From assembly GCA_033439255.1 (NCBI GenBank), contig CM065886.1, positions 806,001-870,000 on the forward strand: 64,000 nt of DNA, read 5' to 3'. The notes below the pieces were generated by a model. The model saw only the letters and a list, made by a program, of their open reading frames with translations. It did not search any database and had not been told where the DNA came from. The position numbers were made by a program, and so were the translations under genes. This stretch comes from Hericium rajendrae. Taxonomy: Eukaryota > Basidiomycota > Agaricomycetes > Russulales > Hericiaceae. Position 1 is the stretch's first letter, and each line of letters opens with the position of its first letter. This document shows, one piece after another, positions 31,699 through 59,081 of the stretch.

Positions 31699-31850
31699 GG
31701 TGGGGGGATCGCGGGTCGCTGATAATCATGGATCTACAAGGTATTATTGTTATATTGTCATCCTGCTCTCCACGGTGCAGCCTCATGGCGTGCACAGGTT
31801 GGCGCTTCTGTCCCTCCCAGGGCTATCGTCGAAGCGCTGATCCTAGGATA

Positions 31851-32592: not shown

Positions 32593-33317
32593 ATGTCGCG
32601 CCCGCCCTCGACAGGCAAGTATATACACTCTGCGGATGGAACGACCATCTACGCCGAGGCATCTGGCTCCCACTCGAACACACACATCGTGCTCATCCCG
32701 GGTCTCGGCCTGAGTGACGCAGTGTTCGACGAGTTCTGCGGCGACGAAAGTCTGCTCAAGTCGGTCTATGCGGTGCGTGTTCGTCGTGCCGCGTGCCGCT
32801 ACAATGTTGTGCTATCTAGCGCAGGTGCGTGTCGATCCTCGCGGTCATGGGCACAGCAGCCCTACCACGACCGCTTACTCGCAGGAATCGAAGCGTTACG
32901 CAGAAGACTTCGAAGCGATCGTGAAGGCATTCGACTTGCACAAGCCGGTCCTTGTCGCATGGTTCGTCGTCGGCCCTTCACGCATTCTCTGTACTCACGT
33001 CCTGCCTCGCACGCCAGGAGCCTCGGCGGTAAGCCGCGTCCGCGCAGCGCACATTCACTATCCTAATCCATCTACCAGGCGCCCTCCTCTGCGACATCGC
33101 CACATACCTCCCGTCCTTCACCCTGTCCGGCTGCGTCTTCCTCGCGGGGATGCCCTGGGCGCAGGAGCTCCTCCAGGACGAAGATTCCTCATTTGTTGTG
33201 CCTGCAGCCACCGGAGCTGGCTCCCCCTGGGAGATCAAACCCGCGCCAACATTGGCCGGAACGGGAAGGAAATTCAAACTGGCGCCAACATATGATGTAA
33301 GCGGCGGGGCCACGTGA
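32593..33317 (+). CDS. Truncated alpha/beta-hydrolase fused to secreted-protein fragment
   Basis: Exons 32593-32772, 32825-32961, 33018-33028 and 33079-33317 give an alpha/beta-hydrolase N-terminal half: HIVLIPGLGLSD (HGxG-like loop), VRVDPRGHGHSSP, and the nucleophile elbow AWSLGG. The elbow's Ser codon lies in an 11-nt exon (33018-33028). It continues ALLCDIATYLPSF and VFLAGMPWAQEL. After QDE the same frame enters EDSSFVVPAATGAGS, homologous to exon 2 of the secreted protein (28791 on), then the MULE terminal repeat, and stops at 33317. The cap, catalytic acid and His are missing, so no activity is expected. The fusion point (about 33180) is the left end of the duplicated block, and the MULE start (33230) lies 48 nt beyond. 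Confidence 0.7.
33221..33229. repeat. Left 9-bp target-site duplication (CTCCCCCTG) of the MULE composite
   Basis: Identical to 57633-57641. Nine bases is the usual MULE target duplication. Removing everything between the copies rejoins the secreted-protein homology (GAGS / CAGAPYGTSILLNAPS). Confidence 0.85.
33230..33269 (+). repeat. M1 5' terminal inverted repeat
   Basis: Forty bases beginning GGAGATCAAACCC and ending GGAACGGGAAGG. The inverted partner is at 54367-54406, where C14 is T. Confidence 0.9.
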
Positions 33318-33415
33318 TTAGAACGCGTCACCGCGCACCGCGCGACGCGCTCCTCGTCGTCGTTACCCTTGACCCTGTATCCTCCTCCTCTCGTAGTTTT
33401 TAATCGTAACATACC

Positions 33416-34740
33416 ATGGCTACAATTCAAGATTATTTTGCACCCTCTAAAAGTACTGCTAAGCCTCCTCCTGCAAGAGCACCACCACCTCCTGCAAGAA
33501 AAGCACCAAATTCGAACACTGCCCGAACATTGAATAAACCACTCAACGGGCTCAAGCTCACGCCGGCCTCGAAAGAAGCATTTCAGCATCACCTCGATCT
33601 GGTCGGCTATGAAGGCCAATCATTCTTCCAGGCCAAGCCATCGCAAGGTAAGTAGCTACCAGACTGTATGCAATTACCTAATGACCGAATCCTCGGAATC
33701 AGTTCATGCGTTCACGCTTTTCGGCCAATTAGGCCTCTATATGCCGGACGAGATTCATCGGTCGGCAAACTCGAAGCTTGTTATCGCGAAGAGTGGATCT
33801 CGAGGCATTGGCGAGAAGCCCTTTGTCTACAAGCGATGGACACGCGTTTTCCAGTGCATGAGCAGCATCGAAGATCCCGCAGAATCGAACTTCACCAATG
33901 CATCAACGGAGTCAGAAGCTACATCAAACGATGGATCATCAACCAGCGGAGAAGCGGCACCATCAAAAAGCGGCAAACCGAAGAAGCGCCAGCGTCCGCT
34001 TCCATACCTCGGGTGCTGTTTCTGTGTCCGTCTTGTAACGACACATCTGGCAACGGACGAAGGTCAGGATTCCTAAAATAGGGGATTGCTTTGTTACTAA
34101 TTCAAGATTAGGACAAAAAATTGAATACATTGACGAGATTACAGGCATTTTCGATCACTGTGCCGACTGCAAGAATCTAGAAGAGATGCCAGGCACACCT
34201 AGAATCCCCCCCCATCCTGAACTCTGTGCTTTCGCCCTCGCTTGCATCAAAAATGACAACATGACACCACAGCAACTGGCGAAGCGATGCCATGAGTGGG
34301 CCAAGACAAATGGGGAAAGAACTACCCACCTGGCGACAAATCTCATCAGTATCTGCTTACCTCACATGACCGGACAAGCATCTATCGCACGATTGCAGCT
34401 CGGACAGGGGTTCCACAGCACTCGGCTGCTGAGTCAAATCTAGATCTTTGGTTCCGATCCAACTCGCCGGCTCCACCTTCTGCAGTTCTCTCGGAATCTG
34501 TCTTGCACTATGAGCCATTTGTCGAGGGCGAATCAGATCGGTTTGTGCTCATACTCAGTCATCCCGAGGAGCAAAAATTTGCCGAAAGCGTCGCGCACAA
34601 TGGTCAAGTTGACTTCGACATCACCTTCGGTTTCTCAAGTGCGCGGGCCAGTCTCATGAACATTGTTGCTATTGATCATCGGAACAATTCTGGAGTTCCG
34701 ATCGGCCACATCATATATACGGCATGCCCATCTGCCAAGG
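33416..34740 (+). pseudogene. MULE-like transposase, 5' half (M1)
   Basis: Exon 1 (33416-33647) is identical in protein to M2's exon 1 (MATIQDYFAPSKS). Exon 2 (33703-34062) carries KPFVYKRWTRVFQC. The third exon begins at 34112. A missing G at about 34302 (HEWA, then wrong frame) breaks the reading frame. At 34740, after CPSAK, the gene is cut by Gypsy G2. The rest resumes at 52613 (52613-52617 repeats 34736-34740). Non-functional. Confidence 0.85.
34736..34740. repeat. Target-site duplication CAAGG, left copy (G2)
   Basis: Repeated at 52613-52617. The uninterrupted sequence exists in M2 (about 56160) with a single CAAGG. Confidence 0.9.
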
Positions 34741-34906
34741 TGTCACGGATCGCTCCATTTCTCTCCGCCTTCTTCTCTGCCATCAAGGCATCGCGTCGGT
34801 CATGTGCTCCAGCAGCCCCATCACATGTTCACTTCCTCACATGACCTGGGGCTATCCTTCACCCATGCCCTTGTTCCCCTTTGGGACATCCTATTGTTCT
34901 CCCTCC
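34741..34906 (+). repeat. G2 5' LTR, first part
   Basis: Matches the first 166 nt of 52190-52612. It ends in CCTCC, the target duplicated by G1. Confidence 0.9.
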
Positions 34907-35329
34907 TGTCAGGACTCGGTCGTAGACAGCAGAGAACCACCCAAGTCACCAGTGATGATGGGAGCGAGAGAGCAGAGAGCGACTAGCAGCGCAGTGACCT
35001 GTATTGGAGGTACAGTACGGTACAGACGAAATGGACAATCTAGGGAAATAGGCGAGCGACAGGGAGCCTATAAGTACTGGGACGACAATGGGAAAAGAAC
35101 AATGGACACCATAACGGGTCGAACAATAGAGTGAGAACAATGGTGGCCAAAAGGAGAACAATGGGAGGGAGAACAATAGGATGTCCCAAAGGGGAACAAG
35201 GGCATGGGTGAAGGATAGCCCCAGGTCATGTGAGGAAGTGAACATGTGATGGGGCTGCTGGAGCACATGACCGACGCGATGCCTTGATGGCAGAGAAGAA
35301 GGCGGAGAGAAATGGAGCGATCCGTGACA
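34907..35329 (-). repeat. G1 3' LTR
   Basis: 423 bp, TGTCACGG...CTGACA on the minus strand. The start of this LTR also encodes the last residues of the pol frame (stop at 35226). Confidence 0.92.
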
Positions 35330-38300
35330 TCACCCCCTCTCTAAGACGCACTTTCGCCTGGAGTGCGTGATGAGCATGGACGGGGTCGAGGTAGATGAGT
35401 CCACGAAGATTGGGAGCCTTGAGTGCATGCGGATGGTGGGTGTAGAAGTCGGTGATTGCACCATGGGCATTGGAAAGGGAGGTACGGGAAAGCCACTGAT
35501 TTTCCGAATCAGGGTAGCCTGCCCATTTGACGAGATATTCAATGCCGCGTTTGTTCCGGGTGAGACGAGCATCGAGGACAGACTCAACTTCGTACTCTTC
35601 CTCGCCCTCCACAAGGTCAGGTGGTGGTGCAGGGAAGTTGGGACCATGAGCGTCGGTTTCCTTGTAAGGGGACAACAGGGACGTGTGGAACACCGGGTGG
35701 ATACGCCAGGTGGGCGGTAGCTTCAGTCGATAAGAGACTGGGCCCAGGACGTCAGTGATTTCGAAAGGTCCCAGGCGTCGATCAGCAAGCTTAGCTTTGG
35801 GTCGCGTGGTTTTGATGTTCTTGCCATCGAGCCAGACCTTGTCACCAACCTGGAAGTGGATGGTGTCGTGCATATGGTCCTGGTTGTTGCGCTTCATGAG
35901 ATCAGCAGCTGTTTGAAGGCTGGCCTGGACCTCAGTGCGAAGTTGTTCGAGGTGACGGAAACGATCCTCGACGGCGGGTGTAGACGATGTGGGGTTGACA
36001 GTGGGGATGGCAGTGGGAATATAGCCAAGGAGCATTTCAAATGGAGCTCGGTTAGTGGCGCTGTGGATACGGTGGTTGTGCGAGAACTCAGCATAAGGGA
36101 GCCATTGGACCCAATCATCCTGACGGTAGTTGCAGAAGGTACGAAGGAACTGCTCGAGTTCTTGATTGACGCGTTCTGACTCGCCGTCGGTCTGTGGATG
36201 ATAGGCGGTGCTGAGGGAGGACTTGATACCAAGTTTGTCGAAGACACCACGCATGACTTTGCCTGCATACTGTGGGCCACGATCAGAGATGAGGCGTTCC
36301 CAGAGGCCGTAGTTCCGATAAATCCTGTCAAAAAGGATGTCGACTGTGCCATCACTGGTAATGGTCTCTTTACAAGGAGTGAAGGAGACATGCTTTGTAA
36401 AACGGTCGACGACCACATTGATGGAGTCATAGCCTTGGCATTCTGGGAGTTTGACGATGAAGTCCGAGGTAATGTCTTGGAAGGGACGGGTAGGGATGGC
36501 ATTGGGAATTGTTTCAACATGAGGGCGGTGATTTTGAACCTTGGTGGCCTGGCAGGTAGCACAGCCATCAACATAATCACGAACGAAGACAGACATACCG
36601 GGCCACCAGTAGTTGCGACTGAGGAGCTCATAGGTCTTATAGCGTCCTGGGTGACCAGCCATGGGGGTGTCATGATGCAGCTTGACGATGTCCCGACGAA
36701 GGTCCTTGTCAGCAGGGATGTAGACTTTGCCACGAAAGAGGATGAGGCCATCCTCGTAGTTCCATTCTTGGAGGTTCTTGACGAGGGAACGAGGACCATT
36801 GTTCAGGATCACATCAAGGGCTTGAACAACCTCAATATCCTTGGTCTTGGCATTGCGAATGCGTTGGCGAAGATCAGCATTGCCAATGGACTTGACAGCA
36901 GCTGGACGTGTAGCACGGATCTGGAAGTACTTGGGGTCAAGGAGGACACGATCGGAGTTGTCGTCGTCCACCCCCTCTCTATGGTCAGGTCGTCTCGACA
37001 TGGCATCTGGCCGGTGATGAATACCGGGTTTGTGGATCAGGGTGAAGTCGAAACGAGTGAGGAAGAGAGCCCAGCGAGCCTGACGACGACTCAGCTTTTG
37101 GGCAGACTTGAAGTATTCCAGGTTCTTATGGTCGGTCCAGATCTCCACAGTATGGGGAGAACCTTCCAGGTAGTGGCGCCAGGCTTCGAGGGCGCGGATG
37201 ATGGCCAGGAGTTCCTTGTCATAGATGTCGTAGTTGCGTTCGGGGGCGGTGAAGGCCTTGGAGATGTAAGCAACAGGGTGCCATTGCTCGTCCTCCCGCG
37301 CTGGGATAGGATACCTCCTGTGGCATAGTCTGAGGCATCGACCTCAACCAGGTAGGGTTTGGACGGGTCAGGCATGATAAGGACTGGGGACGAGGTGAAC
37401 GCAGCTTTAAGAGCCTCAAAGGCATGTTGACATTCAGCAGACCAGGCCCAAGGATGGTCTTTCTTAGTAAGGTCAAACATGGGACGAGCGACTTTGGAGA
37501 AGTCCTGGATAAAGCGTCGATAGAAGTTGCCAAAGCCAACAAAGGACTGGACGTCCTTGACGTTACGAGGGGCAGGCCATTCAGCAATGCCTGCAACCTT
37601 GACAGGGTCCATGGCGAGCGTGTTATGGGAGACGATGAGACCGAGGAACTCAACTGAGGGCTGCTCAAACGAGCACTTCTCTGGTTTGAGGAAGAGGTCA
37701 TTGTCCTGGAGGCGTTGGAGGACCTTGCGCACAAGGTCGCGATGTTCTTCGAGGGTTTCGGTGAAAATGAGGATATCGTCCATGTAGATGACGACTTTGC
37801 CCGTGTCGATGAGATCCTTGAAAAGTTCATTCATCATTCCTTGGAACGTGGCAGGGGAGTTGGTAAGACCAAAAAACATCACCAGGGGTTCAAAGAGACC
37901 GCGGTTGGTTTTGAAGGCGGCTTTCCATTCGTCGCCCTCCTTGATGCGAACATTGTTGTAACCCCAACGAACGTCCATCTTGGAGAAGACTTTGGCACCC
38001 TTGAGCTTGTCAACAAGTTCAGAGATGAGGGGCAGGGGATATTCATTCTTGATGGTGCCTTTGTTGAGGGTGCGATAGTCCTGGACGGGGCGTAGTTTTC
38101 CATCTTTTTTCTTGATAAAGAAGAAGGGACTCGCCATAGGGGATTTGGAAGGACGGATGTAGCCTTTCTTGACCTGGTCATCAAGGAATGAATCGAGGTC
38201 CTCCTGCTCGGTAGGAGCCATGGGATAGACCTTGCATGAACGGGGTTCAAAACCATCTTTCAGGTCAATGGCGTGATCCCAAGGGCGACGTTCGGGGAGG

Positions 38301-39354
38301 CGATGGGAGGATTCCTCGTCGAAGACGGGTTGGAAATCCTGATACTGAGGGGGAACCATCTCAGCAAAGGACTTCTCTGCAACACGAGTGGCCACACGCT
38401 CCGCCAGTTTCTGAGCATTGGTGAAAGAGCGACGGATACGGATGGTGTGTTGATAGTCGGGGTCGTCGTCTGGTGGGGGTGGTGTGTCCCAGTCAGGGAG
38501 AACACCAGCTAGACGAAGGCCCTCTTCCACCCAGTTGTCCTCGACATTAGGTCGGGGGTCATCGTCCTCAGTGAATAGACGTGCAGGGACTTTGGACAGG
38601 TGGATGCGGCGAAGGCGGACACCTTGGACTCGGCGAGCGGGGATCACGTATTTGGGAAGTGGAGCAGCAACAAATGGTGGGGGCAGTGGGAGCAATGGAG
38701 GGGGGCAAGGTGGGGGGAGCAGTACTGCAGCAGTGCTGAGGACTGGTGGACGAGGGGCTGAGTGGCGGCGTTCAGTGCGAGTGGACAGGTTCTTGACCGG
38801 GGGTTTATTCAGAGTGCAAGAGGGAGGGCAGCGAGTCATGTCGACACGACGAGAGACCCAATCAATTTCAGGGTTGTGTTCCTGTAACCAATCGGTCCCA
38901 AGGATAATGTCGTAGTCACCAATGTCAACGAGATAGAACTCAGCTGTCTCCTCATGGAAGGACGTCGAGTCCTTGGCGTAAATGCGGATGTTCTGGTTGA
39001 CTGAATAGCGGACCCAGCCCATGATGTTTTCGGAGTTGTCCACATTGCGAACGGGAAAGGGTTTAGGGAGTTTCTTGAGGGGGAACTGGTGTTTCTTGGC
39101 AAACTCGGGATGCATAATGATGCCTTCTGCACCACTATCGAGAAGTGCCTCAGCGTCGATTTGTTTCTTGATCGGGGTAGTGATAATCTTGGCCTGGAGC
39201 GTAATGGATGGTGTCTGACGATTGGGCGTGATAGCGGACATGCGCAAAGACGATGGATACGATTGCTCACAGGGGTCGGATAGTACAGAGAAGCGATTCG
39301 ACGGATCAAAGAAATGTTTCTTGCCACCCACGGACGACGTGACCGGGGGGCGCT
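35226..39354 (-). pseudogene. G1 pol polyprotein, one-base frameshift
   Basis: Reads protease (ALLDSGAEGIIMH), reverse transcriptase (YMDDILIF), RNase H (VEVDASDYATGG), integrase with an HHCC finger (HHDTPMAGHPGR...CATCQATK), the DDE core (VDRFTKHV, ISDRGPQY, YHPQTDGESERVNQE), a GPF/Y region (RRLGPFEITDVLGPVSYRL) and a chromodomain (YEVESVLDAR...YLVKWAGYPDSENQWL). A missing G in the run at 37295-37297 (SQRG, then out of frame) separates PR-RT from RNase H-INT. Apart from this all motifs are intact. The frame ends inside the LTR at 35226. Pol has no ATG of its own and is in the -1 frame relative to gag. Confidence 0.9.
35330..35346 (-). promoter_or_regulatory. Polypurine tract of G1
   Basis: On the minus strand the sequence AGAGAGGGGGTGA abuts the 3' LTR, as expected for the plus-strand primer of reverse transcription. 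The same tract is at 52174-52189 in G2. Confidence 0.75.
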
Positions 39355-40344
39355 TTAAAAACCCTCAACCATATCCTTTAATGCAGCTTTTGCCTCTTCC
39401 CTTTCTTCCTCACTCAAGTCCTTCAACTGCGACGATAAGTCGGCGATGGACCTGTTGATGGCGGGGACAGCGAGGGCGGCGGCTGCATCTTCTGGAGCTA
39501 CTCCCGGGGCAGAGCCGGTTTCTAGCGCTCGGACACGAGGGATTGGGGCACGGGGGTTGGAGTCGGCATTGAGGGGGCAGTCGCGGAAGCCATGGCCCTT
39601 CTGGCGGCAGCGGAAGCAACCACCCTCACGCCTGAGACGCTCACGGTCAGGCTCCAAGAGTTTGGGCAGTGGGGCACCTGTAGCAGCAACTGTGCGGGAT
39701 CGGCCAGTAGATGTGGACTGAGGGGGGCGAGTGCTCACCGGGGCGCGCCCAGTTGTAGGGCGGGGACTCTGGAACCGGGTGCGCATGAGGTAGGCAGCAT
39801 TCCTGTCCCGGGCCCTTGCCTTCCACTCAACCAGGGTGGTGGGCGTGGGGTAGCTGCGCTGGCAATCGTCTCGCAAGGCGCTGTTGAGGCCATGTAGGAA
39901 CCAATCGATCAGGGCCACATCGTTGTAGCCGGTGCGAGGAGCGAAGGACTCGAACTCGGTGATGTAGTCGACTACCGGGCGCGTGCCCATCTGGAGGGTC
40001 TGGATGGCATGGGAGGCGTCCTTGGAGTCGTCAAGGGGAGAGAAGTCCAAATTGAAGCGAGTTCGAAGGGCAGCGAGGTTGGCGTAGCGAGGGACATGGG
40101 CTGGAGATGTGGCTGCAGCCACAAGATCGTCATCCTCAAGGATCTCCTCGACACGCTGGGTGGCCCACTGGCCGGCAATAGGGCCCTGGCAGAGGTCGAG
40201 GAAGAGGGAGATCTGGGCGGTATCCTCTTTATACCTGACAGAGTTGGCACGAAGGAATAAGCGAATACGCAGCTGGAATTCCTTGGACTTGGAACGATCT
40301 CCCTCAAAGGGAGCAGGTTTGATGCCGATCTCGGGGTTGGACAT
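39355..40344 (-). CDS. G1 gag, nucleocapsid with zinc knuckle
   Basis: A frame of 329 codons from MSNPEIGIKP. The capsid-like part has PFEGDRSKSKEF, WATQRVEEIL and VVDYITEFESFAPRTGYND, typical of retrotransposon gag. The knuckle CFRCRQKGHGFRDC fits CX2CX4HX4C. It ends DMVEGF-stop. The frame is open further upstream without another ATG (to about 41040), so the true N-terminus may be longer. The stop is preceded by a -1 slippery site. Confidence 0.88.
   Translation of the reverse strand: MSNPEIGIKPAPFEGDRSKSKEFQLRIRLFLRANSVRYKEDTAQISLFLDLCQGPIAGQWATQRVEEILEDDDLVAAATSPAHVPRYANLAALRTRFNLDFSPLDDSKDASHAIQTLQMGTRPVVDYITEFESFAPRTGYNDVALIDWFLHGLNSALRDDCQRSYPTPTTLVEWKARARDRNAAYLMRTRFQSPRPTTGRAPVSTRPPQSTSTGRSRTVAATGAPLPKLLEPDRERLRREGGCFRCRQKGHGFRDCPLNADSNPRAPIPRVRALETGSAPGVAPEDAAAALAVPAINRSIADLSSQLKDLSEEEREEAKAALKDMVEGF
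39358..39364 (-). promoter_or_regulatory. Putative -1 ribosomal frameshift site, gag-pol (G1)
   Basis: On the minus strand the gag codons end G GGT TTT TAA. GGGTTTT is a canonical X XXY YYZ heptamer, immediately before the gag stop. The -1 frame is open and continues into protease. A short stem (GCCCCCC with GGGTGGC) can form just downstream. Confidence 0.7.
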
Positions 40345-41583
40345 GTCGTCGGGCGGCGGAACAGGGGGAGCTAGGGCGATGATTGGTTTGACGTTGACGG
40401 TGGGTGTCGATGCAACAGCGGCAATGGGTGGAGCAGGTGAGGGGACTGGTACTGGGGTAGGCGTTGAAACAGGTGGTGGTAGTAGGGCCCGAAGGGTATC
40501 GAGGCGGGTAGCTTGTTGCTGAGCGAGATTCTCTATAACTGCCTGAGAGAGTGCAAGTTCTGCAGCAGTTAAGAAGAGGGTACTGGCCTGCCAAAACCAC
40601 AGGTCACTTTCGTCTACGAGGCTGGGTCGCCAACCAACTACAAGCCGATTGGTGTCGGAGCGGTATGCGTAGTAGTTGTTGGTTACCGGGTTGAAGGTAA
40701 TACCTGGGGGAACAACAAGTGGTGTGGTGCGAGCAGGGGGAGAATCTTCGCTAGAAAGGGCAACGGTGGGAAGCGGTGGGGTAGCGGGGTGTTGACGGCG
40801 GTGTTCTGTAGCTGCGACGTCAAAGTCGTTAAGCTCGAGGTCCTCCTGGTCGTCACGATCAGCGAAGTACCACTGTGCAGGACCGTCGTCGTCCTCGTCC
40901 GGAGTGTCAAAGTCTACTCGAACGATGCCGGAAAGGGTGTAGATGAAGTATTCGTCGAGCGAGGCAAAGATGCCAAGTGGGTATGGTTCAGTGGTCTGGA
41001 AACGGGGGTCGGTGGGATCAATGGTGAGGTCTAGAAGAAGTCAGCCGCAACTGGGCGACGACCAAGAGCACGAGGGTACAGGGGATCCGAGTATGGGGTT
41101 CTGAGGAATCGGTGGCCGAGGCGTTCTCTGGCCCACACAGGCTCAGGCGAGGTTTCAGGGGTGAAGAGACCTAGTGTGCAAAAGGGGAACGAGGTCGATG
41201 GCAGGATGCTTGCAGGGGATCCTCGGTTGGGTTGGCGACAGTGGTAAGCGATGTCCGAGGCACCGAACGTGAATTCTTGCAAGTCGACGTCAAAGGAAAC
41301 TCGAATTCGAACGTATAAGGCAATGGAGATAGCACCTGCACGTGGTTTCCACGACCTCAATCGAAACCAAACTCCTTCGGCTTCCCAACGCTTCACAGCA
41401 CAATAGCGGAGGAGGGGGATGAGTGCACTGCCCTCGATAGTGTTGGCGATGGGGAAGGGGAGATGAGGTTGATGGAATGGGTGTCGAGATTCGGTGAAGA
41501 TGTCGGCGGTGAAGGGTTCAAAGAAGAAAGGTATGATGGGCGATAGTAGAGAGGTGAGGCGGGTGTATGAGAGATTGTCCAGG
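40345..41583 (-). other. G1 leader with long ATG-less open frames
   Basis: From the end of the 5' LTR one frame runs about 180 codons without a stop (passing FRLRSWKPRAGAISIALYVR and ending PVAADFF-stop at 41031). A -1 frame then opens at CTTCTTCTAGAC and runs without interruption into gag (DEYFIYTLSGIV, QWYFADRDDQ, NNYYAYRSDTNRLVV). No ATG precedes MSNPE in either frame. The same arrangement is in G2. Confidence 0.6.
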
Positions 41584-42006
41584 TGTCAGGACTCGGTCGT
41601 AGACAGCAGAGAACCACCCAAGTCACCAGTGATGATGGGAGCGAGAGAGCAGAGAGCGACTAGCAGCGCAGTGACCTGTATTGGAGGTACAGTACGGTAC
41701 AGACGAAATGGACAATCTAGGGAAATAGGCGAGCGACAGGGAGCCTATAAGTACTGGGACGACAATGGGAAAAGAACAATGGACACCATAACGGGTCGAA
41801 CAATAGAGTGAGAACAATGGTGGCCAAAAGGAGAACAATGGGAGGGAGAACAATAGGATGTCCCAAAGGGGAACAAGGGCATGGGTGAAGGATAGCCCCA
41901 GGTCATGTGAGGAAGTGAACATGTGATGGGGCTGCTGGAGCACATGACCGACGCGATGCCTTGATGGCAGAGAAGAAGGCGGAGAGAAATGGAGCGATCC
42001 GTGACA
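41584..42006 (-). repeat. G1 5' LTR
   Basis: 423 bp. It appears identical or nearly so to 34907-35329, indicating recent insertion. Confidence 0.92.
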
Positions 42007-42011
42007 CCTCC

Positions 42012-42268
42012 CATTGTTCTCCTTTTGGCCACCATTGTTCTCACTCTATTGTTCGACCCGTTATGGTGTCCATTGTTCTTTTCCCATTGTCGTCCCAGTA
42101 CTTATAGGCTCCCTGTCGCTCGCCTATTTCCCTAGATTGTCCATTTCGTCTGTACCGTACTGTACCTCCAATACAGGTCACTGCGCTGCTAGTCGCTCTC
42201 TGCTCTCTCGCTCCCATCATCGCTGGTGACTTGGGTGGTTCTCTGCTGTCTACGACCGAGTCTTGACA
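42012..42268 (+). repeat. G2 5' LTR, second part
   Basis: The remaining 257 nt of the LTR (166 + 257 = 423). It is preceded by CCTCC (42007-42011), the right-hand target copy of G1. Confidence 0.9.
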
Positions 42269-43369
42269 TCTGGACAATCTCTCATACACCCGCCTCACCT
42301 CCCTACTATCGCCCATCATACCTTTCTTCTTTGAACCCTTCACCGCCGACATCTTCACCGAATCCCGACATCCATTCCATCAACCTCATCTCTCCTTTCC
42401 CATCGCCAACACCATCGAGGGTAGTGCACTCATCCCCCTCCTCCGCTATTGTGCTGTGAAGCGTTGGGAAGCCGAAGGAGTTTGGTTTCGATTGAGGTCG
42501 TGGAAACCACGTGCAGGTGCTATCTCCATTGCCTTATACGTTCGAATTCGAGTTTCCTTTGACGTCGACTTGCAAGAATTCACGTTCGGTGCCTCGGATA
42601 TCACTTACCACTGTCGCCAACCCAACCGAGGATCCCCTGCAAGTATCCTACCATCGACCTCGTTCCCCTTTTGCACACTAGGTCTCTTCACCCCCGAACC
42701 CTCACCTGAGCCTGTGTGGGCCAGAGAACGCCTCGGCCACCAATTCCTCAGAAACCCGTACTCAGACCCCCTGTACCCTCGTGCTCTTGGTTGTCGCCCA
42801 GTTGCGGCTGACTTCTTCTAGACCTCACCATTGATCCCACCGACCCCCGTTTCCAGACCACAGAACCATACCCACTCGGCGTCTTCGCCTCGCTCGACGA
42901 ATACTTCATCTACACCCTTTCTGGCATCGTTCGAATAGACTTCGTCACTCCAGACGAGGACGAGGACGGTCCCGCACAGTGGTACTTTGCCGATCGTGAC
43001 GACCAGGCAGACCTCGAGCTTAACGACTTCGACGTCGCAGCTACAGAACACCGTCGCCAACACCCCGCTACCCCGCCGCTTCCCACCGTCGCCCTTCCTA
43101 GTGCAGATTCTCCCCCTGCTCGCACCACCCCACTTGTTGTTCCCCCAGGTATTACCTTCAACCCGGTAACCAACAACTACTACGCATACCGCTCCGACAC
43201 CAATCGGCTTGTAGTCAGTTGGAGACCCAGCCTCGTAGAAGAAAGTGACCTGTGGTTTTGGCAGGTACCCTCTCCTTAACCACTGCAGAACTCGCACTCT
43301 CCAGTTATAGAGAATCTCGCTCAGCAACAAGCTTAACCACTGCAGAAGCCCCCTGTTCAGCCATCCATC
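42269..43369 (+). other. G2 leader, counterpart of the G1 pre-gag frames
   Basis: The same ATG-less frames as in G1 (VKRWEAEGVWFRLRS...VAADFF-stop at 42821, then the -1 frame DEYFIYTLSGIV). From about 43265 the copy is rearranged: CTTAACCACTGCAGAA is repeated and a block corresponding to the Pro-rich part before gag is missing. Confidence 0.65.
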
Positions 43370-43443
43370 GACATGTCCAACCCTGAGATCGGCGTCAAAC
43401 CTGTTCCTCTCTCAAGCAGATTATAGAGAATTCCAGCAACAAG

Positions 43444-47298: not shown

Positions 47299-48154
47299 CC
47301 GCCCAGATCTCCCTCTTCCTCGACCTCTGCCAGGGCCCTATCGCTGGCCAGTGGGCCACCCAGCGTGTCGAGGAGATCCTTGAGGATGACGATCTCGTGG
47401 CTGCAAAAACATCTCCAGCTCATGTTCCCCGTTACGCCAACCTCACCGCCCTTCGAACTCGCTTCAACTTGGACTTCTCTCCCCTTGACGACTCCAAGGA
47501 TGCCTCCCATGCTATCCAGACCCTCCAGATGGGTACGCGCCCGGTAGTCGACTACATCACCGAGTTTGAGTCCTTCGCCCCTCGCACCGGCTACAATGAC
47601 GTGGCCCTGATCGACTGGTTCCTGCATGGCCTCAACAGCGCCCTGCGCGATGATTGCCAGCGCAGCTACCCCACGCCCACCACCCTGGCTGAGTGGAAGG
47701 CGAGGGCCCGTGACAGGAATGCTGCCTACCTCATGCGCACCCGGTTCCAGAGTCCCCGCCCTACAACTGGGCGCACCCCGGTGAGCACTCGCTCCCCTCA
47801 GTCCACATCTACTGGCCGATCCCGCACAGTCGCTGCTACAGGTGCCCCACTGTCCAAACTCTCGGAGCCTGACCGTGAGCGCCTCAGGCATGAGGGCGGT
47901 TGCTTCCGCTGCCGCCAGAAGGGCCATGGCTTCCGCGACTGCCCCCTCAATGCTGACTCCAACCCCCGTGCCTCAACCCCTCGTGTCCGAGCGCTAGAAA
48001 CCGGCTCTGCCCCGGGAGTAGCTCCAGAAGATGCAGCCGCCGCCCTCGCTGTCCCCGCCATCAACAGGTCCATCGCCGACTTATCGTCGCAGTTGAAGGA
48101 CTTGAGCGAAGAAGAGAGGGAAGAGGCAAAGGCTGCATTAAAGGATATGGTTGA

Positions 48155-48161
48155 GGGTTTT
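48155..48161 (+). promoter_or_regulatory. Putative -1 ribosomal frameshift site, gag-pol (G2)
   Basis: G GGT TTT TAA, the same context as G1: slippery GGGTTTT immediately before the gag stop, with the -1 frame open into protease. Confidence 0.7.
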
Positions 48162-48164
48162 TAA

Positions 48165-51100
48165 AGCGCCCCCCGGTCACGTCGTCCGTGGGTGGCAAGA
48201 AACATTTCTTTGATCCGTCGAATCGCTTCTCTGTACTATCCGACCCCTGTGAGCAATCGTATCCATCATCTTTGCGCATGTCCGCTATCACACCCAACCG
48301 TCAGACACCGTCCATTACGCTCCAGGCCAAGATTATCACTGCCCCGATCAAGAAACAAATCGACGCTGAGGCACTTCTCGATAGTGGTGCAGAAGGCATC
48401 ATTATGCACCCCGAGTTTGCCAAGAAACACCAGTTCCCCCTCAAGAAACTCCCTAAACCCTTTCCCGTTCGCAACGTGGACAACTCCGAAAACATCATGG
48501 GCTGGGTCCGCTATTCCGTCAACCAGAACATCCGCATTTACGCCAAGGACTCGACGTCCTTCCATGAGGAGACAGCTGCGTTCTATCTCGTTGATATTGG
48601 TGACTATGACATTATCCTTGGGACCGATTGGTTACAGGAACACAACCCTGAAATTGATTGGGTCTCTCGTCGTGTTGACATGACTCGCTGCCCTCCCTCT
48701 TGCACCCTGAATAAGCCCCCGGTCAAAAGCCTGTCCACTCGCTCAGAACGCCGCCAATCAGCCCCTCGTCCACCAGTCCTCAGTACCGCTGCTGTACTGC
48801 TCCCCCCACCTTGCCCCCCTCCATTGCTCCCACTGCCCCCGCCATTTGTTCCTGCCCCACTTCCCAAATACGTGATCCCTGCTCGCCGAGTCCAAGGTGT
48901 CCGTCTTCGCCGCATCCACCTGTCCAAAGTCCCTGCACATCTGTTTACCGAGGATGATGACCCGCGACCTAACATCGATGATGACTGGGTTGAAGAGGGT
49001 CTTCGCCTAGCTGGTGTTCTCCCTGACTGGGACACACCACCCCCTCCAGATGACGACCCAGACTACCAACATACCATCCGTATCCGTCGCTCTTTCACCA
49101 ATGCTCAGAAACTGGCTGAGCGTGTGGCCGCCCATGTTGCGGAGAAGTCCTTTGCTGAGATGGTTCCCCCTCAGTACCAGGATTTCCAACCCGTCTTCGA
49201 TGAGGAATCCTCCCATCGCCTTCCTGAACGTCGCCCTTGGGATCACGCCATCGACCTGAAAGATGGTTTTGAACCCCGTTCATGCAAGGTCTATCCCATG
49301 GCTCCCACTGAGCAGGAGGACCTCGATTCGTTCCTCGATGACCAGGTCAAAAAAGGCTACATCCGTCCTTCCAAATCCCCTATGGCGAGTCCCTTCTTCT
49401 TTATCAAGAAAAAAGATGGAAAACTACGCCCGTCCAGGACTATCGCACCCTCAACAAGGGCACCATCAAGAATGAATATCCCCTGCCCCTCATCTCTGAA
49501 CTTGTTGACAAGCTCAAGGGTGCCAAAGTCTTCTCCAAGATGGACGTTCGTTGGGGTTACAACAACGTTCGCATCAAGGAGGGCGACGAATGGAAAGCCG
49601 CCTTCAAAACCAACCGCGGTCTCTTTGAACCCCTGGTGATGTTTTTTGGTCTTACAAACTCCCCTGCCACGTTCCAAGGAATGATGAATGAACTTTTCAA
49701 GGATCTCATCGACACGGGCAAAGTCGTCATCTACATGGACGATATCCTCATTTTCACCGAAACCCTCGAAGAACATCGCAACCTTGTGCGCAAGGTCCTC
49801 CAACGCCTCCAGGACAATGACCTCTTCCTCAAACCAGAGAAGTGCTCTTTCGAGCAGCCCTCCGTTGAGTTCCTCGGTCTCATCGTCTCCCATAACACGC
49901 TCGCCATGGACCCTGTCAAGGTTGCAGGCATCGCTGAATGGCCTGCCCCCCGTAACGTCAAGGATGTCCAGTCCTTTGTTGGCTTTGGCAACTTCTATCG
50001 ACGCTTCATCCAGGACTTCTCCAAAGTCGCCCGTCCCATGTTTGACCTTACCAAGAAAGACCATCCTTGGGCCTGGTCTGCTGAATGTCAACATGCCTTT
50101 GAGGCTCTTAAAGCTGCGTTCACCTCGTCCCCAGTCCTTATCATGCCTGACCCGTCCAAACCCTACTTGGTTGAGGTCGATGCCTCAGACTATGCCACAG
50201 GAGGTATCCTATCCCAGCGCGGGGAGGACGAGCAATGGCACCCTGTTGCTTACATCTCCAAGGCCTTCACTGCCCCTGAACGCAACTACGACATTTATGA
50301 CAAGGAACTCCTGGCCATCATCCGTGCCCTCGAAGCCTGGCGGCACTACCTGGAAGGCTCTCCCCATACTGTGGAGATCTGGACCGACCATAAGAACCTG
50401 GAATACTTCAAGTCTGCCCAAAAGCTGAGTCGTCGTCAGGCTCGCTGGGCTCTCTTCCTCACTCATTTCGACTTCACCTTGATCCACAAACCCGGTATTC
50501 ATCACCGGCCAGATGCCATGTCGAGACGACCTGACCATAGAGAGGGGGTGGACGACGACAACTCAGATCGTGTCCTCCTCGACCCCAAGTACTTCCAGAT
50601 TCGTGCTACACGTCCAGCCGCTGTCAAGTCCATTGGCAATGCTGATCTTCGCCAACGCATTCGCAATGCCAAGACCAAGGATATTGAGGTCGTTCAAGCC
50701 CTTGACGTGATCCTGAACAATGGTCCTCGCTCCCTCGTCAAGAACCTCCAAGAATGGAACTACGAGGATGGCCTCATCCTCTTTCGTGGCAAAGTCTACA
50801 TCCCTGCTGACAAGGACCTTCGGCGAGATATCGTCAAGCTGCATCACGACACTCCCATGGCTGGTCACCCCGGACGCTACAAGACCTATGAGCTCCTCAG
50901 TCGCAACTACTGGTGGCCCGGTATGTCTGTCTTCGTTCGTGATTATGTCGATGGCTGTGCTACCTGCCAGGCCACCAAGGTTCAAAATCACCGCCCCCAT
51001 GTTGAAACAATCCCCAATGCCATCCCTACCCGTCCCTTCCAAGACATTACCTCGGACTTCATCGTCAAACTCCCAGAATGCCAAGGCTATGACTCCATCA

Positions 51101-52293
51101 ATGTGGTCGTCGACCGTTTTACAAAGCACGTCTCCTTCACTCCTTGTAACGAGACCATTACCAGTGATGGCACAGTCGACATCCTTTTTGACAGGATTTA
51201 TCGGAACTACGGCCTCTGGGAACGCCTCATCTCTGATCGTGGCCCACAGTACGCAGGCAAAGTCATGCGTGGCGTCTTTGACAAACTTGGTATCAAGTCC
51301 TCCCTCAGCACCGCCTATCATCCACAGACCGATGGTGAGTCAGAACGCGTCAATCAAGAACTCGAGCAGTTCCTTCGTACCTTCTGCAACTACCGTCAGG
51401 ATGATTGGGTCCAATGGCTCCCTTATGCTGAGTTCTCGCACAACCACCGTATCCACAGCGCCACTAACCGAGCTCCATTTGAAATGCTCCTCGGCTATAT
51501 TCCCACTGCCATCCCCACTGTCAACCCCACATCGTCTACACCCGCCGTCGAGGATCGTTTCCGTCACCTCGAACAACTTCGCACTGAGGTCCAGGCCAGC
51601 CTTCAAACAGCCGCTGATCTCATGAAGCGCAACAACCAGGACCATATGCATGACACCATCCACTTCCAGGTTGGCGACAAGGTCTGGCTCGATGGCAAGA
51701 ACATCAAAACCACACGACCCAAAGCTAAGCTTGCTGATCGACGCCTGGGACCTTTCGAAATCACTGACGTCCTGGGCCCAGTCTCTTATCGACTGAAGCT
51801 ACCACCCACCTGGCGTATCCACCCGGTGTTCCACACGTCCCTGTTGTCCCATTACAAGGAAACCGATGCTCATGGTCCCAACTTCCCTGCACCACCACCT
51901 GACCTTGTGGAGGGTGAGGAAGAGTATGAAGTTGAGTCTGTCCTCGATGCTCGTCTCACCCGGAACAAATGCGGCATTGAATATCTTGTCAAATGGGCAG
52001 GCTACCCTGATTCGGAGAATCAGTGGCTTTCGCGTACCTCCCTTTCCAATGCCCATGGTGCAATTACCGACTTCTACACCCACCATCCGCATGCACTCAA
52101 GGCTCCCAATCTTCGTGGACTCATCTACCTCGACCCCGTCCATGCTCATCACGCACTCCAGGCGAAAGTGCGTCTTAGAGAGGGGGTGATGTCACGGATC
52201 GCTCCATTTCTCTCCGCCTTCTTCTCTGCCATCAAGGCATCGCGTCGGTCATGTGCTCCAGCAGCCCCATCACATGTTCACTTCCTCACATGA
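48165..52293 (+). pseudogene. G2 pol polyprotein, one-base frameshift
   Basis: Same domain order as G1. Protease (LLDSGAEG) to KKKDGKLRP is in one frame. A C is missing from the run at 49429-49431 (G1 has four), so VQDYRTLNKG is shifted. From about 49432 the frame continues undamaged through RT (YMDDILIF), RNase H, integrase and chromodomain to a stop at 52293, inside the 3' LTR. The damage is at a different point from that in G1. Confidence 0.9.
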
Positions 52294-52612
52294 CCTGGGG
52301 CTATCCTTCACCCATGCCCTTGTTCCCCTTTGGGACATCCTATTGTTCTCCCTCCCATTGTTCTCCTTTTGGCCACCATTGTTCTCACTCTATTGTTCGA
52401 CCCGTTATGGTGTCCATTGTTCTTTTCCCATTGTCGTCCCAGTACTTATAGGCTCCCTGTCGCTCGCCTATTTCCCTAGATTGTCCATTTCGTCTGTACC
52501 GTACTGTACCTCCAATACAGGTCACTGTGCTGCTAGTCGCTCTCTGCTCTCTCGCTCCCATCATCGCTGGTGACTTGGGTGGTTCTCTGCTGTCTACGAC
52601 CGAGTCTTGACA
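52190..52612 (+). repeat. G2 3' LTR
   Basis: 423 bp, TGTCACGGATCG...CCGAGTCTTGACA, followed by CAAGG. Confidence 0.92.
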
Positions 52613-52617
52613 CAAGG
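52613..52617. repeat. Target-site duplication CAAGG, right copy (G2)
   Basis: Second copy of the target at 34736-34740. M1 transposase coding sequence continues from here. Confidence 0.9.
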
Positions 52618-54060
52618 CTGTTCACGGAGATTATAACACAGCGCTTCTCACTCGGCTGATCGGACTTTTCAACGAGCGGCTATGCGAGCGGCTAGGCATC
52701 AATTTTACCATTTGCGTGGCCAACACGGACAACGATTCTCGGGAGCGCGCTGCCTTGACAACGACGTGGAACGGTGTGCACCTCATGCTTTGCATGTTCC
52801 ATATTTGGCAGGCTTGGCGCAACAAACTCAGATTGTGCCTGCAGTCAGTTCCCGTAGGCGAGGCACGCAAAACAACTAGATCTGATCTGGCACAATTCTC
52901 GATGCAGCTTCTGAAGGATGTGAAGACACACGCGGAAGCAACCACGGCGTTCAATGACATTCTTGCATGTTACCAGGCACTCGAGCTACAGCCGGATGAG
53001 ATCTCGAAGAAGCGAGCTCGAGCTGGGATGACTTACTTGGCTTATTTCCGAGGTTATCTCAAGGAGCCGGCGTTCTGGAAAGCGTGGTCACCTGCCGGCG
53101 CTGTTGAAGCTGCCGAGAAGCTCGGCATACCCCTGGAGAAGGTCGCGTGCACGACAAATCACGTAGAGTATTTCAATCATCTCATCAAAGGGCCGCTCTT
53201 TGCTATGTTCGAGAGAGGCGGGCGGCGCCCTCGGCTGGACATATGGGTCCTTACCCTGCTCACCGAGATTCTTCCCAGCTTCTTCTGCGAGAAAGCACAA
53301 AGGGGGCAGATGAATGATTTTCGACAGGAAATGAGGCAGTTGCACCCGACGCAGTTGCGCCCGACGTCATCTAGCAACGAAGGTAATTAAAATTTGATGT
53401 CCACCATTGGTGCGCTAATTATAACCGACAGAAGCGCACAACGTCGTGAAAAATTTTGATGACCCGGAACAATGGCTTGCCGATGCTATCTGTGCCGTCA
53501 ATGAGGATGATGACAAAGTTCTTTGCCGTGGCGATCCCGACACATCGCTCATTGAAGGTTATGGACTGCCCTTAGACGACGACTTTGCATTTGAAGATGC
53601 CCGAGAATCAATAGATATCTTACTGGACCTCTCGCGTGAAGCAGAAGCTGTGTCTGATTCTGAAGGTTCAACTCCGGGCCCAATGTTCCTGCAGGATCTC
53701 GGCATCATCAAAAGCGCCCAGGAACGTAACGAAAGCGGCCATACATCGCGGCAACAGGCTATTCTTGCGACCGGTCTGTCTATGATCCAGAAGGCCGAGG
53801 ACATGCTTCGCGATGCCATCAAGATGTGCCAGTCAGCTGGTCAGTCAGACTTTGATGCCGAGTACTACCGGAGCGACAGCTTGCGAGATCAAGACGACAG
53901 CAAACCTATGCCATTCGAAGTTCACGTTGCACAAAGTGAGGGGAGGATCTCGATGTCACCTCCACTACTCCTGGGGCCATCTCGGCATGAAAACCGGGTA
54001 CTCGGCACACTCGAGCGGCAAAAGAAGGCGAAGCGAATTCAGTCGTACGGTGTTCGATAA
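52613..54060 (+). pseudogene. MULE-like transposase, 3' half (M1)
   Basis: Continues from the split at 34740: AVHGDYNTALLTRL, then NTDNDSRERAAL (M2 has NMDNDS), LMLCMFHIWQAWRNKL, a NHVEYFNHLIKGPLF segment, an intron near 53383-53431, and the acidic C-terminal exon ending RIQSYGVR at 54060. Nearly identical to M2. Confidence 0.85.
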
Positions 54061-54366
54061 GCGTGCGGAGCACGATGTAAACATAGTTTGTATTATTAGT
54101 AAATAACATTGAGTCATGAAAACCTGAGCTGCGTGCAGCACGGGGGGGTTTGGGGGGGAACGCCCCAACGGGGGTCCAGGGGGGGACCCCCCCCTCGCCG
54201 CGGCCGACGCCGCAAACAATCCATGCCAAAAAAAACAACAACATTCGTATTATGTGCTACTGTACACACACGACACGACGCACACCGCGCACTGCGCTGA
54301 CTACGACAAACGCCTCGCGCCCATCTTACGAGGCGCGGCATTGTTGGTGGCGCTTACGTCAGCCCG
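54061..54366. other. Non-coding 3' part of M1
   Basis: Contains C/G homopolymer runs (54140-54195) and lies in the left arm of the palindrome, mirrored at 54409-54715. No gene. Confidence 0.7.
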
Positions 54367-54406
54367 CCTTCCCGTTCCGGCCAATGTTGGCACGGGTTTG
54401 ATCTCC
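54367..54406 (-). repeat. M1 3' terminal inverted repeat, at the palindrome centre
   Basis: Inverted partner of 33230-33269 (39 of 40 bases). It is followed by one extra G and then the M2 arm. Confidence 0.88.
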
Positions 54407-54407
54407 G

Positions 54408-57400
54408 ACGGGAAGGCGGGCTGACATAAGCGCCACCAACAATGCCGCGCCTCGTAAGATGGGCGCGAGGCGTTTGTCGTAGTCGGCGCAGTGCGCGGTG
54501 TGCGTCGTGTCGTGTGTGTACAGTAGCACATAATACGAATGTTGTTGTTTTTTTTGGCATGGATTGTTTGCGGCGTCGTCGCGGCGACAGGGGTCCCCCC
54601 TGGACCCCGTTGGGGCGTTCCCCCCAAACCCCCCCGTGCTGCACGCAGCTCAGGTTTTCATGACTCAATGTTATTTACTAATAATACAAACTATGTTTAC
54701 ATCGTGCTCCGCACGCTTATCGAACACCGTACGACTGAATTCGCTTCGCCTTCTTTTGCCGCTCGAGTGTGCCGAGTACCCGGTTTTCATGCCGAGATGG
54801 CCCCAGGAGTAGTGGAGGTGACATCGAGATCCTCCCCTCACTTTGTGCAACGTGAACTTCGAATGGCATAGGTTTGCTGTCGTCTTGATCTCGCAAGCTG
54901 TCGCTCCGGTAGTACTCGGCATCAAAGTCTGACTGACCAGCTGACTGGCACATCTTGATGGCATCGCGAAGCATGTCCTCGGCCTTCTGGATCATAGACA
55001 GACCGGTCGCAAGAATAGCCTGTTGCCGCGATGTATGGCCGCTTTCGTTACGTTCCTGGGCGCTTTTGATGATGCCGAGATCCTGCAGGAACATTGGGCC
55101 CGGAGTTGAACCTTCAGAATCAGACACAGCTTCTGCTTCACGCGAGAGGTCCAGTAAGATATCTATTGATTCTCGGGCATCTTCAAATGCAAAGTCGTCG
55201 TCTAAGGGCAGTCCATAACCTTCAATGAGCGATGTGTCGGGATCGCCACGGCAAAGAACTTTGTCATCATCCTCATTGACGGCACAGATAGCATCGGCAA
55301 GCCATTGTTCCAGGTCATCAAAATTTTTCACGACGTTGTGCGCTTCTGTCGGTTATAATTAGCGCACCAATGGTGGACATCAAATTTTAATTACCTTCGT
55401 TGCTAGATGACGTCGGGCGCAACTGCGTCGGGTGCAACTGCCTCATTTCCTGTCGAAAATCATTCATCTGCCCCCTTTGTGCTTTCTCGCAGAAGAAGCT
55501 GGGAAGAATCTCGGTGAGCAGGGTAAGGACCCATATGTCCAGCCGAGGGCGCCGCCCGCCTCTCTCGAACATAGCAAAGAGCGGCCCTTTGATGAGATGA
55601 TTGAAATACTCTACGTGATTTGTCGTGCACGCGACCTTCTCCAGGGGTATGCCGAGCTTCTCGGCAGCTTCAACAGCGCCGGCAGGTGACCACGCTTTCC
55701 AGAACGCCGGCTCCTTGAGATAACCTCGGAAATAAGCCAAGTAAGTCATCCCAGCTCGAGCTCGCTTCTTCGAGATCTCATCCGGCTGTAGCTCGAGTGC
55801 CTGGTAACATGCAAGAATGTCATTGAACGCCGTGGTTGCTTCCGCGTGTGTCTTCACATCCTTCAGAAGCTGCATCGAGAATTGTGCCAGATCAGATCTA
55901 GTTGTTTTGCGTGCCTCGCCTACGGGAACTGACTGCAGGCACAATCTGAGTTTGTTGCGCCAAGCCTGCCAAATATGGAACATGCAAAGCATGAGGTGCA
56001 CACCGTTCCACGTCGTTGTCAAGGCAGCGCGCTCCCGAGAATCGTTGTCCATGTTGGCCACGCAAATGGTAAAATTGATGCCTAGCCGCTCGCATAGCCG
56101 CTCGTTGAAAAGTCCGATCAGCCGAGTGAGAAGTGCTGTGTTATAATCTCCGTGAACAGCCTTGGCAGATGGGCATGCCGTATATATGATGTGGCCGATC
56201 GGAACTCCAGAATTGTTCCGATGATCAATAGCAACAATGTTCATGAGACTGGCCCGCGCACTTGAGAAACCGAAGGTGATGTCGAAGTCAACTTGACCAT
56301 TGTGCGCGACGCTTTCGGCAAATTTTTGCTCCTCGGGATGACTGAGTATGAGCACAAACCGATCTGATTCGCCCTCGACAAATGGCTCATAGTGCAAGAC
56401 AGATTCCGAGAGAACTGCAGAAGGTGGAGCCGGCGAGTTGGATCGGAACCAAAGATCTAGATTTGACTCAGCAGCCGAGTGCTGTGGAACCCCTGTCCGA
56501 GCTGCAATCGTGCGATAGATGCTTGTCCGGTCATGTGAGGTAAGCAGATACTGATGAGATTTGTCGCCAGGTGGGTAGTTCTTTCCCCATTTGTCTTCGG
56601 CCCACTCATGGCATCGCTTCGCCAGTTGCTGTGGTGTCATGTTGTCATTTTTGATGCAAGCGAGGGCGAAAGCACGGAGTTCAGGATGGGGGGGGATTCT
56701 AGGTGTGCCTGGCATCTCTTCTAGATTCTTGCAGTCGGCACAGTGATCGAAAATGCCTGTAATCTCGTCAATGTATTCAATTTTTTGTCCTAATCTTGAA
56801 TTAGTAACAAAGCAATCCCCTATTTTAGGAATCCTGACCTTCGTCCGTTGCCAGATGTGTCGTTACAAGACGGACACAGAAACAGCACCCAAGGTATGGA
56901 AGCGGACGCTGGCGCTTCTTTGGTTTGCCGCTTTTTGATGGTGCCGCTTCTCCGCTGGTTGATGATCCATCGTTTGATGTAGCTTCTGACTCCGTTGATG
57001 CATTGGTGAAGTTCGATTCTGCGGGATCTTCGATGCTGCTCATGCACTGGAAAACGCGTGTCCATCGCTTGTAGACAAAGGGCTTCTCGCCAATGCCTCG
57101 AGATCCACTCTTCGCGATAACAAGCTTCGAGTTTGCCGACCGATGAATCTCGTCCGGCATATAGAGGCCTAATTGGCCGAAAAGCGTGAACGCATGAACT
57201 GATTCCGAGGATTCGGTCATTAGGTAATTGCATACAGTCTGGTAGCTACTTACCTTGCGATGGCTTGGCCTGGAAGAATGATTGGCCTTCATAGCCGACC
57301 AGATCGAGGTGATGCTGAAATGCTTCTTTCGAGGCCGGCGTGAGCTTGAGCCCGTTGAGTGGTTTATTCAATGTTCGGGCAGTGTTCGAATTTGGTGCTT

Positions 57401-57632
57401 TTCTTGCAGGAGGTGGTGGTGCTCTTGCAGGAGGAGGCTTAGCAGTACTTTTAGAGGGTGCAAAATAATCTTGAATTGTAGCCATGGTATGTTACGATTA
57501 AAAACTACGAGAGGAGGAGGATACAGGGTCAAGGGTAACGACGACGAGGAGCGCGTCGCGCGGTGCGCGGTGACGCGTTCTAATCACGTGGCCCCGCCGC
57601 TTACATCATATGTTGGCGCCAGTTTGAATTTC
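54408..57632 (-). mobile_element. Inverted, end-trimmed MULE copy M2
   Basis: The mirror image of M1 without the Gypsy insertion, 3,225 bp. Its inner end starts ACGGGAAGGCGGGC, lacking the outermost 31 nt of the terminal repeat. Its outer end stops at AATTTC(CT), lacking essentially the whole 40-bp repeat, and runs directly into the right-hand target copy. The transposase gene is intact. With trimmed ends it should not be able to transpose by itself, though its product could act on other copies. Confidence 0.88.
54717..57485 (-). CDS. MULE-like transposase, intact copy (M2)
   Basis: Four exons: 57485-57254, 57198-56839, 56789-55395 and 55345-54717, giving 871 residues without a stop. N-terminus MATIQDYFAPSKS is Pro/Lys-rich. 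KPFVYKRWTRVFQC and the segment YLGCCFCVRLVTT...ITGIFDHCADC match the N-terminal pattern of Agaricomycete MULE-type transposases. NLDLWFRSNSPAP is followed by the catalytic core: VDFDITFGFSSARA (first Asp), VAIDHRNNSGVPIGHIIYTA, GDYNTALLTRL, NMDNDSRERAAL (second Asp), LMLCMFHIWQAW (C/H motif) and, further on, a NHVEYFNHL region. The acidic tail has a DAEYYRSDS segment. Three introns of 49-55 nt. Family assignment is by motif pattern, and catalytic residues are inferred. Confidence 0.82.
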
Positions 57633-57641
57633 CTCCCCCTG
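57633..57641. repeat. Right 9-bp target-site duplication (CTCCCCCTG)
   Basis: Pair of 33221-33229, directly after the trimmed M2 end. Confidence 0.85.
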
Positions 57642-58520: not shown

Positions 58521-59081
58521 TCTGAAATGACTACTAACTATTGCTGCAGCAGCAGCAGTGACGTCCGCATTGCCCTTTGGCATCATCGCCGTCGCTGCAT
58601 GGCTGCGTCTTCATCCACGGTCCCATCAGCAAAATTCGCATGCATTTCTTCCCCTGAGAATGAAAACTGCAATTGCAATCACAACGACATATCTTCAAAG
58701 CTTGGACTTAATAGTCAGTTTATTCGAGCCCGGTACCCTTTTGCCTTCATTTCTAACAGACAATGAGACAGCACTTATATTTAACGATGCCCCAGTCACT
58801 CATACTTAGTTGATTCTTTTTTTTTGAGATTTATTTGCTCTGACCCCTTCTTATATATGACTTGCTTTATCATAGATTTGTTGATGATTGTCTTCTGTCT
58901 GAGGTCAGCTACGGAGACTCTGCTGTATGTACTTTAGTACCATCGGCTATGCCGATAAATGAGTTAGAAATCTAAGACACTGCTGCGGGACCTCATTTCC
59001 ACCCCACGGCTCGTATCCGACTATCTTCGGGGATGTGCTGCCTTCGAGCAACCTATCACTAGTGCCTACTTCAATGCTTGT
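58521..59081. other. Intergenic part of the duplicated block
   Basis: Matches about 30100-30640. No gene. Confidence 0.5.

Follow-up and report, generated by a model that had tools for sequence, protein, structure and literature searches.

A nest of five mobile elements in Hericium rajendrae in which a MULE probably entered its own near-identical copy

This study revealed a nest of five mobile elements, comprising two MULEs (M1 and M2), two Gypsy elements (G1 and G2) and one hAT element, at 33221-57641 of the window, by which we mean the whole 64,000-nucleotide stretch that was analysed (C9:806001-870000; genome searches covered the 46.8-Mb, 19-contig genome). On the evidence of the sequence the nest is real, and ordinary insertions, telescoped one into another, very probably explain it. 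M2 is read as the older, outer element, and M1 as a complete element (33269-54406) lying in the opposite orientation inside the 3' end of M2. The order of arrival that this architecture indicates is M2, M1, G2, G1; the sequence leaves the date of the hAT element relative to G1 unfixed. The first-pass annotation had given the order as MULE, G2, G1, which stands for the two Gypsy elements and misses one step, the arrival of M2 before M1. The features are as follows.

28547-29890, forward strand: uninserted relative of the split gene, with a 447-aa open frame
33178-33220, forward strand: left part of the diverged gene relative that the insertion splits, aligning with 28785-29059 across the junction
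33221-57641: the five-element nest, between 9-bp copies of CTCCCCCTG
33221-33229: left copy of the M2 target duplication CTCCCCCTG; the related uninserted gene has one 9-mer
33230-33268, reverse strand: 3' terminal 39 bp of M2 including its 3' terminal inverted repeat (TIR), adjoining the outer target copy; 100% identical to the MULE copy L008 over 40 bases (33230-33269)
33260-33268: left 9-bp target copy of M1, AACGGGAAG, inside the M2 3' end
33269-34740, forward strand: 5' part of M1 with its true 5' end GAAATTCAAACTGG; 99.06% identical to L008
34736-34740: left target copy of G2, CAAGG
34741-34906, forward strand: first piece of the G2 left LTR; 0 of 166 positions differ from the right LTR
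34902-34906: left target copy of G1, CCTCC
34907-42006, reverse strand: G1, a chromodomain-bearing Gypsy LTR retrotransposon whose LTRs lie at 34907-35329 and 41584-42006
42007-42011: right target copy of G1, CCTCC
42012-42268, forward strand: second piece of the G2 left LTR; 1 of 257 positions differs from the right LTR
42269-52189, forward strand: G2 internal region, broken by the hAT element; its pol side is 96.8% identical to that of G1 (5.3 kb compared)
43444-47298, forward strand: hAT element, 3.85 kb, with matching ends CAGGGATCTGCAGGGGT and TAGGGATCTGCAGGGGT and a PF05699 domain
52190-52612, forward strand: G2 right LTR, 423 bp
52613-54406, forward strand: 3' part of M1, opening with the right CAAGG copy and closing with the true 3' end GATCTCC; 99.0% identical to L008
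52613-56164: palindrome in which the 3' half of M1 faces that of M2; the arms measure 1763 and 1757 bp and the centre 32 bp
54407-54415: right target copy of M1, GACGGGAAG, with one mismatch to AACGGGAAG
54407-57632, reverse strand: main part of M2, whose true 5' end abuts the right target copy; 98.9% identical to L008 over 3231 columns
55390-56862, reverse strand: M2 transposase open frame, 491 aa
57633-57641: right copy of the M2 target duplication CTCCCCCTG
57642 to about 58500, forward strand: right piece of the split gene relative

The true ends of the MULE family were read from L008, a copy at C9:1815209 ff., and from a further copy on contig C3. When 33150-33350 was used as a query, bases 120-201 matched the 5' end of this copy and bases 81-120 matched its 3' end on the opposite strand. 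L008 starts with GAAATTCAAACTGGCGCCAACAT, ends with ATGTTGGCGCGGGTTTGATCTCC and carries GCAAGCTAA on both sides; on its evidence, the family has the ends 5' GAAATTC and 3' GATCTCC, a 9-bp target duplication, and imperfect TIRs of about 23 bp (18 of 23 positions matching), not 40 bp. M1 had been credited with 40-bp terminal repeats, but the 40-mer concerned, 33230-33269, is the family 3' end, identical to that of L008 at 40 of 40 bases. At the 5' ends of L008, the copy on contig C3 and M2, where it was looked for, the 40-mer was absent in all three cases.

With regard to M2, its left piece (33230-33269) corresponds to positions 3262-3223 of the family alignment and its right piece to positions 3231-2, exactly nine positions being common to both. 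Taken together with the family ends, this overlap argues that M2 was present first and that M1 landed in its 3' end. Without G2 and the extra CAAGG, M1 measures 1472 + 1794 - 5 = 3261 bp, which is the length of L008; M2 is about 3.26 kb long. It had been proposed instead that M1 has 40-bp terminal repeats and that M2 is a mirror copy between the 3' end of M1 and the right target copy, in which case M2 would have been made by, for example, fold-back repair synthesis. The main part of M2 is indeed about 99% like M1 in reverse, and it lacks the last 31 bp of the 3' end. However, these 31 bp sit at 33230-33260, the two pieces of M2 have exactly nine positions in common, and the 5' end of M2 is complete when judged by L008 and the C3 copy. 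Together with the absence of the 40-mer from the three 5' ends, this makes mirror copying extremely improbable. Template switching and composite transposition were also considered as origins of M2 and, like mirror copying, were set aside after L008 had shown the true ends. With M1 nested in M2, the orientations of the elements account for the large inverted repeats, and mirror copying is not needed.

The length of the target duplication was 9 bp, within the 8-11 bp that mark MULEs, in all four close copies (M1, M2, L008 and C3; the relatives on contigs C10, C19, C1 and C13 are left out of this count). The two sides match at 9/9 positions for M2 and for L008, and at 8/9 for M1 and for the C3 copy, which is flanked by GGTAGGAGA and GGCAGGAGA. 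For M1, a perfect 9-mer, ACGGGAAGG, is obtained when the flanks are read one base over; the 8/9 frame is preferred because it leaves M1 with the same ends as the other copies. When site pairs were drawn at random in the window, 45 of 200,000 matched at 8 or 9 of nine positions. The difference at one of nine bases in the preferred frame counts against the proposed succession of insertions.

At the outer edges, CTCCCCCTG was found at both 33221-33229 and 57633-57641, as the first-pass annotation had reported. The same 9-mer occurs three further times in the window (on the forward strand at 43110 and, complemented, at 40362 and 40734), and its presence is therefore, by itself, weak evidence for a target duplication. 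More informative is the uninserted gene relative, located 4.4 kb upstream of the nest. When the host flanks were joined with a single copy of the 9-mer, they aligned with 28785-29059 at 65% identity over 278 columns; the junction is gap-free, and the 11 gap columns all lie further right. The flanks compared singly gave the same pairing (33178-33222 with 28785-28829, and 57643-57690 with 28838-28885). This gap-free alignment supports CTCCCCCTG as a target duplication, in agreement with the earlier interpretation, although the duplication belongs to M2 and not to M1. It also bears out the claim that the MULE insertion splits a gene duplicate with another copy nearby, the latter being the diverged relative at 28.5-29.9 kb. 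No Pfam match was found for the 447-aa frame of this relative. The split relative has diverged, and on the left only about 50 bp of it can still be recognised, so it may have been non-functional at the time of the insertion.

Further repeats are found in the host sequence of the window. The segments at 30256-31840 and 58674-60266 are direct repeats at 90% identity, with an inverted relative at 19686-20672 (about 70%); a 256-aa frame within the two close copies is 95% identical between them and has three protein matches, all from Hericium alpestre. The closest named relatives of the proteins searched come from Russulales and other mushroom-forming fungi, and these matches place the host in or near Russulales, the order of Hericium alpestre and Artomyces pyxidatus as well as of Amylostereum and Auriscalpium. 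Tandem duplications are present at 60648-60815 (a perfect duplication of 84 bp), at 6890-7177 (144-bp units, with diverged neighbours) and at 13388-13749 (184-bp units).

The outer target copies also bear on a composite origin, in which the inverted, nested M1/M2 pair would have formed elsewhere and been moved as a unit by the outer ends of M2. Those ends are intact, and the outer target copies would look no different after such a move. However, the nesting of M1 in M2 would still have to come first, and no other inverted pair was present among the 13 genome matches obtained with M2, and not the junction, as the query. We consider a move of the preformed pair very unlikely and retain the insertion of M2 at this site, followed by M1.

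Comparison of the window with itself gave four inverted repeats: 33263-34749 with 57638-56149 (99.5%), 34907-40222 with 52612-47297 (96.8%), 52613-56164 with itself (98.4%) and 40510-41845 with 43333-42007 (95.2%). Two large palindromes in one locus could be produced by fold-back or misjoined reads during assembly. An artefact of this kind is scarcely credible here, as the arms differ from each other, in the MULE palindrome at 15 of 1763 columns and between the pol sides of G1 and G2 by 3.2%, and as each of the elements M2, M1, G2 and G1 is bounded by target copies where these would be expected.

The placement of the two Gypsy elements in the first-pass annotation was borne out: CAAGG was found at 34736-34740 and 52613-52617, which places G2 inside M1, and CCTCC at 34902-34906 and 42007-42011, which places G1 inside the left LTR of G2. 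Both elements have 5-bp target copies and LTRs of the TG...CA type. G1 matched the Pfam gag, protease, RT, RNase H, integrase and chromo domains and, judging from these together with its LTRs and target copies, is a Gypsy LTR retrotransposon. In its domain set, 5-bp target copies and LTR termini it resembles known chromodomain Gypsy elements, with no notable difference. G2, on the opposite strand, is assigned to Gypsy by its 96.8% likeness to G1, the domain scan having covered the frames of G1 only. The LTR pairs differ at 0 of 423 positions in G1 and at 1 of 423 in G2, and this near-identity fits a later arrival and the nesting order. The genome is rich in LTRs of this type: of 397 candidates, 40 were scored, and every one of these was full-length at 99-100% identity.

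The insert in the gag region of G2 contains a hAT dimerisation domain (PF05699, E 5.7e-16, in one of six frames, with stops read as X), which agrees with the earlier placement of a hAT element there. An 8-bp target duplication was not found: the left flank GCAACAAG and the right flank CCGCCCAG are mismatched, and an exact-match scan for such a duplication returned two rows only, both artefacts of the stretch end. The hAT call is based on the domain and the ends and not on a clean insertion. To the left of the element lies about 40 bp of filler with no match in other gag copies; 28 bases of it, sought in the genome, were found once. The G2 gag region at 43334-43443 lacks about 126 bp present in other copies (e.g. 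C12:496133-496275). The missing duplication, the filler and the missing gag sequence suggest that the arrival of the hAT element, or a later event, involved flanking loss or rearrangement, and these same irregularities count against the nest as a series of clean insertions. Among the matches listed in the genome search, the hAT element is the sole near-identical full-length copy; a relative on contig C6 is 66% identical over about two thirds of the length. Other Gypsy copies carrying the hAT element were absent among the matches listed, which makes its arrival after G2 likelier than its arrival together with G2.

The 491-aa frame of M2 had 14 protein matches, nine of which carry a source name; the named relatives come from Hericium, Ephemerocybe, Pluteus, Gymnopilus, Coprinopsis, Mycena, Roridomyces and Suillus, and two of the 14 are named 'MULE transposase domain' in a source. 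Among ten aligned proteins (that of the window and nine of the 14 found), seven matched PF10551 at E up to 0.1, the best at 5.1e-08. D194 and E418 are invariant in this alignment and D274 is nearly so; these would be the catalytic residues. Given the transposase domain with its putative DDE residues, the 9-bp target duplications and the TIRs, M1 and M2 are placed in the MULE superfamily. They share with other MULE DNA transposons the 9-bp target duplications and the PF10551 transposase relatives, and with the 'non-TIR MULEs' described in PMC3903597 the short, imperfect TIRs. They differ in that the frame of M2 scores below the Pfam cut-off (E 0.022; 15.6 versus 27.6 bits) and in that the TIRs measure about 23 bp, with 18 of 23 positions matching. 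When L008 was searched against Pfam in a single frame, with stops read as X, there was no match, probably owing to frame changes along the element.

The family has few copies. The search with M2 listed the close copies M1, M2, L008 and C3, relatives on C10 and C19 at about 76%, and relatives on C1 (a match to the 3' end only) and C13. In the C13 relative (L023:3868-4546) both MULE ends lie about 0.7 kb apart, possibly as an internally deleted derivative. The C3 copy contains two inserts of 1.66 and 2.5 kb, and the flanks of the latter (L019:3259-5768) overlap by 9 bp of the element. A second MULE-in-MULE nest was looked for in the C3 copy and not found, as neither of its two inserts matched the window or L008.

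M1, M2 and L008 were compared at 3228 ungapped columns, with the C3 copy used for polarisation. There are 21 states common to M1 and M2 and different in L008; at these, C3 agrees with L008 at 13 (M1/M2 derived) and with M1/M2 at six, has no base at one and has another base at one. Private states number 12 in M2 and three in M1, and all three copies differ at one column. A gapped stretch of G/C runs (columns 1577-1606, second block), in which single columns are not trusted, was set aside; it holds six of the private states of M2, one of those of M1, the one all-different column and one of the 13 shared derived states. Outside it, M1 and M2 differ by eight substitutions, each of which turns CpG into TpG or CpA, a pattern suggestive of methylated-CpG decay. 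Among the four copies compared, M1 and M2 are each other's closest. We infer that M1 would be a sister copy of M2 after a short move, for instance between replicated chromatids. The comparison behind this sister origin includes two other copies, one of them the C3 copy with its two inserts, and this limit counts against it.

On the evidence of the sequence, the locus was very probably assembled in five steps. M2, a 3.26-kb MULE, entered the gene relative in reverse orientation, duplicating CTCCCCCTG. The near-identical M1 then entered M2 in forward orientation, 39 bp from its 3' end, duplicating 9 bp. G2 entered M1 with duplication of CAAGG, and G1, on the opposite strand, entered the left LTR of G2 with duplication of CCTCC. 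The hAT element lies in the gag region of G2 without a target duplication and may have arrived later than G2 or, less probably, together with it.

Transposons insert in their own kind too. A literature search on fungal MULEs, nesting and self-insertion yielded, among the papers listed and judged by title, no report of a fungal MULE nested in its own twin. Nested insertions in MULEs are well known from maize and rice: among the coding MULE candidates treated in PMC3903597, over a third contain nested elements, in maize mostly LTR retrotransposons; in the nest described here, by comparison, the first guest is a near-identical copy of the host element, and the organism is a fungus. The locus is the product of ordinary transposition, and the new reading of the MULEs makes it simpler, not stranger. 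It also provides a worked example of how two opposite insertions of one family mimic a mirror-copied composite until an outside copy fixes the ends.

The MULE palindrome forms a long inverted repeat over transposase sequence, with 1748 of 1763 columns identical and the 3' part of the transposase frame covered. In maize, according to PMC3440606, Mu killer consists of inverted MULE copies with arms of about 1.3 kb that cover transposase sequence, and it silences MuDR; it is an internally deleted, partly duplicated element whose centre resisted sequencing, and that paper disputes where its transcripts come from. The two loci are alike in having two inverted MULE copies with long arms over transposase sequence (1.76 kb here). 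They differ in that silencing was shown for Mu killer, whereas the palindrome described here owes its shape to nesting and is known from its sequence alone. The genome has matches to Piwi at ten places, to DNA methylase at five and to Dicer_dimer at three. That the self-nesting palindrome acts as a natural silencing hairpin of this low-copy family, as a fungal counterpart of Mu killer, is unlikely. Hairpin-shaped DNA of this kind could in principle silence the family, and if the palindrome were transcribed, self-nesting would give a transposon family a simple way to make its own silencing trigger.
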